Assembly (NCBI GenBank): GCA_026702615.1
Contig: JAPPBY010000028.1
Coordinates: 1-64,000, forward strand
DNA length: 64,000 nucleotides
Direction: 5' to 3'
Origin: Chloroflexota bacterium
Lineage (GTDB): Bacteria; Chloroflexota; Dehalococcoidia; Tepidiformales; Tepidiformaceae
Positions 19,940 to 20,954 of the stretch are shown here, in pieces. A program made the translations under genes and the position numbers. Within the stretch, counting starts at the first letter, position 1; every line of letters begins with the position of its first letter. Below the pieces are notes generated by a model. That model saw only the letters and a program-made list of their open reading frames with translations, did not search any database and had not been told where the DNA came from.

Positions 19940-20128
19940 ATGGCGGAGTTCGGCGGCGGATTCATCCCGCCCAGTCACGGTCCCGAGCTGGAGATGCTGG
20001 CGGAGGCCCAGCGCGACGAGATCAAACGCCAGCACGGCGGCGACCACCGCCCCCCGAAGCGCCCCCGCGGCCCCCGCTTCGGCTTGCTGCGACGAGTCGT
20101 GCGCGCCATCCGCGGCGGCGGGGACTAG
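19940..20128 (+). CDS. Small cationic-tail protein 1
   Basis: A 62-residue protein. The N-terminal half is neutral; the C-terminal half is RPPKRPRGPRFGLLRRVV then RAIRGGGD. The tail forms a cationic amphipathic helix. The same tail closes the next two proteins. GGAGG at 19929-19933 supports the ATG, and TATAGT at 19917-19922 is a -10-like element. Function unknown; membrane, nucleic-acid or protein-tag roles are all possible. Confidence 0.68.
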   Translation: MAEFGGGFIPPSHGPELEMLAEAQRDEIKRQHGGDHRPPKRPRGPRFGLLRRVVRAIRGGGD

Positions 20129-20180
20129 GTTTCCCGCCAACCCCATCCCCGGTCGGCTACAGTAGAAGGGGAGGTTCGGG

Positions 20181-20390
20181 ATGGGTCGCTCAGGCACGAT
20201 TCCGCCGTTTGGCCACGGCCACGGTTCGCCCTTCGGGCACGAGGCTGTAGCTATGCGGATGTCCCGGCTGCACAGGTTGGTGGAACAGCGCCGGAGCCAG
20301 GGCGGTCACCGCCCCCCGAAGCGCCCAAAGGGCCGACGCTTCGGCCTGCTCCGCCAGATCGTCCGCGTCATCCGTGGCGGCGGCGACTAG
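20181..20390 (+). CDS. Small cationic-tail protein 2
   Basis: A 69-residue paralogue with a different His/Gly-rich N-terminus (PPFGHGHGSPFGHE) and the shared tail RPPKRPKGRRFGLLRQIV then RVIRGGGD. GGGGAGG (20168-20174) precedes the ATG and TACAGT (20158-20163) could be its own -10. A short hairpin GCCCGT-ccgcca-ACGGGC lies just after the stop. Confidence 0.68.
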   Translation: MGRSGTIPPFGHGHGSPFGHEAVAMRMSRLHRLVEQRRSQGGHRPPKRPKGRRFGLLRQIVRVIRGGGD

Positions 20391-20421
20391 CGCCCGTCCG
20401 CCAACGGGCCGGGGAACTTGA

Positions 20422-20646
20422 ATGACACGCCGGCGTCCCGACGTTCCGCAGCAGAAGGGGCGGGGTGCCGCCCCGGAGCGCCTGGCGGAGCGCCGCGCGC
20501 AAGATATGCACCGGTACGCGATCGGCCGACACCAGGACAGGATCGGGGAGGCCGACCGTCGCCGCCGGCTTCGCCAGCTTCCCCGGGGTCCGCGCGTCGG
20601 CCTGTTGCGACGCATCGTCCGCTTCATCCGCGGCGGCGGGGACTAG
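20422..20646 (+). CDS. Small cationic-tail protein 3
   Basis: A 74-residue paralogue. The N-terminal part is Arg/Gln-rich and likely helical (APERLAERRAQDMHRYAIG). The tail PRGPRVGLLRRIV then RFIRGGGD matches copies 1 and 2, ending in the identical IRGGGD. The ribosome-binding site is weak (GGGGAA). Third of the tandem set. Confidence 0.65.
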   Translation: MTRRRPDVPQQKGRGAAPERLAERRAQDMHRYAIGRHQDRIGEADRRRRLRQLPRGPRVGLLRRIVRFIRGGGD

Positions 20647-20726
20647 CCTCCAGCGGAGCGCCCTCTGCTAGAGTGGGCGGGGGTTGCGAAGACCGGAAAC
20701 CGGGATTCCTGACAAGGAGATGCGCG

Positions 20727-20954
20727 GTGACATTTGGTCAAGAACATGGCGCGCGCGGCGAGGCGGCCCGGGCCAGTCGAACTATCCAGAAGGCGATCAA
20801 CCCGCATCGAGCCCCGGGCGGGGTCCTTGGCCTGGACCCCGATCCCGACATGAAGGAAGCACGCCGCCGCTACGAGGAAGAACACCCCTCCCGCCTCCGC
20901 TGGCTGTTCAAGCCCGGGGAATGGATTGGCAGGCACTTCTTGCGCCGTGGCTGA
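20727..20954 (+). CDS. Small cationic protein, divergent relative
   Basis: A 75-residue protein read from GTG 20727, supported by AAGGAGA at 20714-20720. It ends in a basic, aromatic tail (RLRWLFKPGEWIGRHFLRRG) comparable in charge and position to the tails of the three upstream proteins, but without IRGGGD. TAGAGT (20669-20674) is a possible -10. Its stop overlaps the next gene. It may be a fourth, diverged member or only a neighbour. Confidence 0.6.
   Translation: MTFGQEHGARGEAARASRTIQKAINPHRAPGGVLGLDPDPDMKEARRRYEEEHPSRLRWLFKPGEWIGRHFLRRG

Follow-up and report, generated by a model that had tools for sequence, protein, structure and literature searches.

FtsA ends in a short, cationic and amphipathic C-terminal membrane-targeting helix. 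A constant C-terminus on otherwise different proteins is the mark of the LPXTG and PEP-CTERM families, and a body followed by a flexible linker and a terminal amphipathic helix is the layout of encapsulation peptides. In RiPP and bacteriocin precursor arrays, short paralogs that each combine a constant with a variable part follow one another in tandem, and tandem sets with variable parts are frequent among peptide families generally. In MinD, the C-terminal amphipathic membrane-targeting helix is a transplantable module (PMC8155659).

An array of small genes with a common tail

The window, i.e., the whole stretch of 64,000 nucleotides analysed here, comes from an assembly of 38 contigs and 2.87 Mb. 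It includes five small plus-strand genes, coding for proteins of 62, 69, 74, 75 and 130 residues, which lie between two minus-strand genes for a Rieske oxygenase and an acyl-CoA dehydrogenase:

18573..19850, minus strand: flanking gene, Rieske ring-hydroxylating oxygenase alpha subunit
19916..19924, plus strand: -10-like box CTATAGTGG of gene 1, lying 24 nt ahead of the start
19940..20128, plus strand: gene 1, body class A, 62 residues, tail PRFGLLRRVVRAIRGGGD; orthologs in 7 further genomes of the genus
20039..20128, plus strand: tail 3′ segment, copy 1
20157..20165, plus strand: -10-like box CTACAGTAG of gene 2
20181..20390, plus strand: gene 2, body class B, 69 residues, tail RRFGLLRQIVRVIRGGGD; orthologs in G003, G004 and G007
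20301..20390, plus strand: tail 3′ segment, copy 2, 80% identity to copy 1
20392..20409, plus strand: inverted repeat GCCCGT/ACGGGC in the gene 3 leader
20422..20646, plus strand: gene 3, body class C, 74 residues, tail PRVGLLRRIVRFIRGGGD; ortholog in G004
20557..20646, plus strand: tail 3′ segment, copy 3, 73% identity to copy 1
20668..20676, plus strand: -10-like box CTAGAGTGG of gene 4
20727..20954, plus strand: gene 4, 75 residues, GTG start, of a family distinct from genes 1–3, basic C-terminal segment RLRWLFKPGEWIGRHFLRRG
20947..21339, plus strand: gene 5, helical protein of 130 residues, GTG start, 8-nt overlap with gene 4
21352..22575, minus strand: flanking gene, acyl-CoA dehydrogenase

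A sequence-only reading had described three consecutive genes with differing N-termini and matching tails. The three reading frames were verified, each ending in VRxIRGGGD and a stop codon; of the matching elements then listed, the final IRGGGD is common to genes 1–3, exact copies of RPPKRP and RFGLLR occur in genes 1 and 2 only, and gene 3 has RLRQLPRGPRVGLLR. At the DNA level, the last 90 nt of these genes form a single direct-repeat family. The same reading had a fourth gene with a similar basic tail overlapping a 130-residue frame, which proved correct, the overlap being 8 nt when gene 5 is read from the GTG at 20947. It had also credited each of the first three genes with its own -10-like hexamer or start signal; a -10-like box stands before genes 1, 2 and 4, whereas neither gene 3 nor its ortholog has such a box upstream.

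The starts of the tail genes carry a Shine-Dalgarno-like sequence. The pattern [CG]TANAG[TG]G is found no more than 50 nt upstream of 17 of the 22 tail genes of the genus, mostly 22–25 nt before the start codon, as against a mean of 0.18 and a maximum of 2 in shuffled upstream stretches; the box of gene 2 is one base off this pattern and hence is not counted among the 17. The exact form [CG]TANAGTG has three sites over the full window, of which the array holds two, and the looser CTAVAGTGG, with one mismatch, is not enriched across the window (11 observed versus 17.4 expected). From the sequence, we infer that these boxes may act as promoters.

The tail itself is strongly amphipathic and cationic: in all 20 genes measured, of the 22, its 11-mer has a hydrophobic moment of 0.94–1.02 and a net charge of +3 or +4, each tail exceeds its own shuffles in hydrophobic moment (P 0.009–0.043), and the net charge over 22 residues is +5 to +7. 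The C-termini of genes 1–3 have a hydrophobic moment above that of every one of the 55 control C-termini taken from the window, and those of genes 4 and 5 are unremarkable in this respect, being matched by 7 and 8 of these controls, which are the longest non-overlapping frames of the window and might include false genes. An AlphaFold2 model from 23 aligned members places helices at residues 15–32 and 48–58 (gene 1 numbering) with a loose linker; its pLDDT is about 81 for residues 51–60 and 65.5 overall, and its pTM of 0.25 denotes low whole-model confidence. Thus, the tail is predicted to be a cationic amphipathic helix of 11 residues. By eye, neither a transmembrane segment nor a signal peptide is visible in the 22 members.

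Searches of family libraries returned little for these proteins. In Pfam, genes 1 and 3 have no match, gene 2 only a sub-threshold one to DUF1639 (11.7 bits versus a cut-off of 22.2), and gene 5 only two sub-threshold ones; NCBIfam has nothing for genes 1–3 and only weak sub-threshold matches for gene 5; and PHROGs has nothing for genes 1–3 and only weak matches for genes 4 and 5 and for a member from a second genus (G014, below). None of the five array proteins matches PADLOC anti-phage defence, and gene 1 has no relative among plasmids or viral contigs. Among PDB sequences, the tail-family profile has no match at E 1 and the best match of gene 5 is at E 0.1; homology of the tail family to MinD or FtsA was not found in Pfam or among PDB sequences.

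Gene 5 includes an internal 45-bp (15-residue) tandem repeat of 2.4 copies at 21072–21176, a region that is shorter in its homologs from G005, G014 and G024. Its model has helices at 9–85, 87–105 and 108–122 (pLDDT 76.4, pTM 0.33).

Elsewhere in the window, three tandem minus-strand genes for luciferase-like monooxygenases of 316 residues each (14570–17468; Bac_luciferase, E 1e-43 to 1e-49) adjoin the Rieske oxygenase gene, and a plus-strand type II toxin–antitoxin pair, RelB/YafQ (PF04221, PF15738), lies at 23135–23665. The heptamer CCACCGA is repeated five times at 24642–24675, close to the beginning of a fused tetrapyrrole methylase/HemD frame; the listed start lies just 5′ of the repeat, and the real one may be downstream.

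Distribution, rearrangement and selection

Tail genes were found in 8 of the 9 genomes of the genus, a group within the Dehalococcoidia, and number 22, with 19 of them in the 7 genomes beyond that of the window. The arrays read as follows, capital letters denoting body classes:

G000 (own genome), three tail genes: A-B-C-4-5
G001, four: A-D-single-E-4-5
G002, two: A-single-4-5, gene 4 being preceded by a broken unit
G003, four: A-D-B-E-5
G004, three: A-4′-C-B-4-5
G005, one: A-5
G006, one: A-4′-5
G007, four: A-single-B-single-4-4-5

In the ninth genome (G008), gene 5 comes immediately after the Rieske gene; the -10-like box is retained there and no tail gene is present. The constant core of the arrays is a class A gene and gene 5, and the intervening units have been gained, lost and reordered: B precedes C in the genome of the window and follows it in G004. 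The gene 4 family is present in 6 of the 9 genomes. The array flanks are not fixed because, within the stretches fetched, the Rieske gene was not found upstream of the array in G002 and G007, nor the acyl-CoA dehydrogenase gene downstream in G005. The sequence-only reading had proposed looking for many dispersed copies of the tail or for linked enzymes; there are instead 1–4 adjacent copies per genome, that of the window having only the three of the array, and no enzyme is conservedly linked, the neighbours differing between the two tail-bearing genera. In G006, a second, isolated copy was noticed (L043), a 55-residue minus-strand frame at 3585–3752 with linker and tail start HRPPKGPRGARFGLLRRILGLVG and an end other than IRGGGD; it is probably a decaying copy outside the array.

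Leaders move with bodies, as the class C leader is identical behind class B in the window's genome and behind a gene-4-like unit in G004. The gene W_1 has the same 75 nt upstream as its G003 and G004 orthologs and a nearly identical body, and the tails of the three are more divergent: W_1 differs from G3_1 at 2 of 132 body and 6 of 54 tail positions (P 0.008) and from G4_1 at 2 of 132 and 8 of 54 (P 0.0009), these pairs being picked post hoc and the body-against-tail comparison itself being chosen once the ortholog dN/dS figures were known. The class D pair displays the reverse pattern. Between genes of different classes, tail identity within versus between genomes is 0.872 versus 0.836 for amino acids and 0.852 versus 0.827 for DNA (permutation P 0.008–0.011; 20 of the 22 genes, G1_3 and G4_4 being left out of this and of the pooled tail dN/dS on account of tail insertions). 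The within-genome concordance is thus small; examples are LIRR in three G003 genes and RRIARLIRG in four G007 genes. Together with the travelling leaders, it fits exchange at the tail and leader, and common selection on the tail would account for part of it.

The tail genes are real genes under purifying selection. Whole-gene dN/dS is 0.13–0.59 among class A orthologs and 0.21–0.31 among those of class B, and the single ortholog pairs of classes C, D and E give 0.26, 0.30 and 0.29, respectively; for genes 4 and 5 it was computed from 3 genomes each. When bodies and tails are split, the values scatter more (e.g., 1.30 for the tail of G3_1 versus G4_1 and 0.90 for the body of W_1 versus G3_1), and because of the small numbers and wide scatter these individual values are not for close reading. 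The tails of paralogs in the same genome have a pooled pS of 0.305, a pN of 0.079 and a dN/dS of 0.21 (20 pairs), and those of paralogs across genomes a dN/dS of 0.23 (136 pairs). The sequence-only reading had allowed that the common tail might merely reflect simple recent duplication without selection. Recent copying does not explain it, since the paralog tails have diverged at synonymous sites and have a low dN/dS; hence, the tail is maintained by selection at the protein level.

We also uncovered tail-like genes in a second genus of the same family (g7), at another locus that lacks a Rieske gene and features a deacetylase-like neighbour, as well as, in G014, a substrate-binding-protein-like one (both by eye):

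G014, one gene of 62 residues, ending RRILRRIRGGSD
G026, tandem gene of 61 residues, ending RRILRRIRGGGD
G026, tandem gene of 71 residues, ending RRILRRIRGGG
G026, tandem gene of about 63 residues, ending RRRSLLRRLPGRIGR

Three of these four genes have the tail RRILRRIRGG. The profile E-values for the second genus, 7.8e-13 and 2.2e-15, were obtained with these members themselves in the profile; before inclusion G014 scored 0.0078, and G026 scored 2.4e-5 against a profile to which just the G014 member had been added. Since tail, size and tandem layout agree, homology to the tail family is likely on the strength of these sequence features, with convergence as the alternative.

Beyond these two genera, no convincing member was found among the candidates scored in 393 genomes of the class and 400 of the phylum; at most 15 first-look candidates were scored per genome, so that weak relatives may have escaped notice. 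In the class sample, 13 genomes have a match at E 0.005, 10 of which are G000–G007, G014 and G026; the other three (G152, G189 and G259) are weak, and the matches in G152 and G259 do not resemble the short tail genes. The phylum sample gave the window's own genome and four weak matches (G458, G542, G568 and G734), which were rejected as lying within longer or broken frames. Two of these, from other Chloroflexota families, are a long helical protein in G542 and a protein glycosyltransferase-like by eye in G734 (L109 and L111); both resemble the tail genes in carrying a basic amphipathic segment close to the C-terminus, a likeness that we put down to chance or convergence. Also set aside were family-search matches in G031 and G022, judged to be chance as L053 and L054 have no fitting frame; a weak G022 match ending RRIRGGGD inside a longer read-through frame (L106); and a broken short frame in G026 (L107). 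The family profile search further gave a weak match in G023, and the genome-contig search one locus, L036.

Every one of the 9 genomes of the genus has a gene 5 homolog, as do 3 of 29 others of the family (G014, G024 and G026); by tail content, these are 10 of the 10 tail-bearing genomes of the family versus 2 of the 28 others. In the second genus, gene 5 is on a contig other than that of the tail genes. This co-occurrence, seen in two genera only, is no more than suggestive.

What the tail proteins might do

The membrane-targeting suggestion of the sequence-only reading survives best: a short cationic amphipathic tail is there, and docking itself is drawn from its amphipathicity and charge, which nucleic-acid binding would fit too. 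Hence, we propose tentatively, as a plausible reading, that the C-terminal helix docks these proteins peripherally on the inner membrane while the variable bodies bind partners. Each would be a small cytoplasmic protein with a disordered N-terminus, a short variable helical body, an often Pro/Arg-rich linker and a constant tail helix, GLLRRhhRhIR (h, hydrophobic) ending in GGGD. Like that of MinD, this helix would settle on the cytoplasmic membrane from the inside, where its surface is negatively charged, and the body would bind a partner that varies by gene. Most genes would be served by their own promoter-like box, and gene 5, which closes the array, may be the common partner or scaffold of the tail proteins. 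Recombination in the common tail and leader would add, delete and reorder units and keep the tails alike within a genome. It is conceivable, if unlikely, that the whole is a recombining array of cassettes, each of leader, promoter, body and tail, in which interchangeable binding segments sit on a constant docking helix and crossing-over reshuffles inner-membrane adaptors, with gene 5 as their scaffold.

The main rival, which we likewise regard as unlikely, is that the basic linker and tail (RPPKRPRGPRFGLLRR...) bind DNA or RNA, making these small nucleic-acid-binding accessory proteins with variable bodies. The tail charge over 22 residues would suit this, as would the PRGPR in the Pro/Arg linker, which is somewhat like an AT-hook, the core of which is PRGRP. 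However, the exact AT-hook is absent, no nucleic-acid-binding family was matched in Pfam or NCBIfam, and the RPPKRP linker is missing from classes D and E, whereas the hydrophobic face of the helix is conserved.

It is distinctly improbable that small precursors release the tails as cationic peptides with an antimicrobial or signalling role. Antimicrobial peptides are amphipathic, with a moment and charge like those of the tail, but here the conserved part would have to be the active peptide and the variable part a leader, and the latter has no signal peptide. Moreover, genes 1–3 are without NCBIfam or PHROGs matches, a protease, maturase or exporter gene common to the neighbourhoods of both genera is lacking, and no leader or export gene stands beside the array: in place of RiPP-type maturation or export genes the neighbours are the Rieske oxygenase and acyl-CoA dehydrogenase genes and, in the second genus, the deacetylase-like and (G014) substrate-binding-protein-like ones.

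The sequence-only reading had also raised a sorting or processing signal. We give very little credence to the tail as such a signal for the cell surface, recognised by an enzyme of its own; a constant C-terminus on variable proteins would be expected of one, but no transmembrane stretch adjoins the tail, no signal peptide or conserved linked enzyme is seen, and the copies are few and adjacent rather than dispersed. Next to none attaches to a cargo-loading or encapsulation peptide that would bring small proteins into a shell: the body, flexible linker and short amphipathic C-terminal helix resemble such peptides, but neither a BMC shell gene (PF00936) nor an encapsulin gene (PF04454) occurs in any of the 9 genomes of the genus, with controls detected for both, which largely refutes this reading for these two shell types. 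Finally, that the frames are non-genic and their likeness is leftover duplicated DNA has virtually no probability: chance short frames are common at about 68% GC and several of these are overlapped by long spurious ones, but the whole-gene dN/dS, the synonymous divergence of the paralogs, the Shine-Dalgarno-like starts and the recurrence in a second genus speak against it, and selection refutes it.

Comparison with known systems

No description of the tail family was found in the literature searched, and, as sampled, the family is limited to two genera of one Dehalococcoidia family. It is unusual in that the bodies vary and the C-terminal helix is constant. If the tail does dock on the membrane, these would be natural modular membrane adaptors and a case of gene-scale domain shuffling in bacteria; even without docking, they mark a small-protein family absent from the standard family libraries.

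Like the LPXTG and PEP-CTERM families, the tail family has a constant C-terminus on differing proteins; unlike them, it has few, adjacent copies and lacks a transmembrane segment, a signal peptide and a linked enzyme. Its body–linker–helix layout is that of encapsulation and cargo-loading peptides, but all 9 genomes of the genus are without a BMC shell or encapsulin gene. With RiPP and bacteriocin precursor arrays it shares short tandem genes of a constant and a variable part, yet here the constant part is C-terminal and modification and export genes are not nearby. Unlike MinD and FtsA, the tail proteins, known here from sequence, are of 57–74 residues, have no nucleotide-binding domain and come in a tandem array with variable bodies; like the membrane-targeting sequences of those two proteins, the tail is a predicted cationic amphipathic helix with a basic face, which follows a flexible stretch and lies at the very end of the protein.
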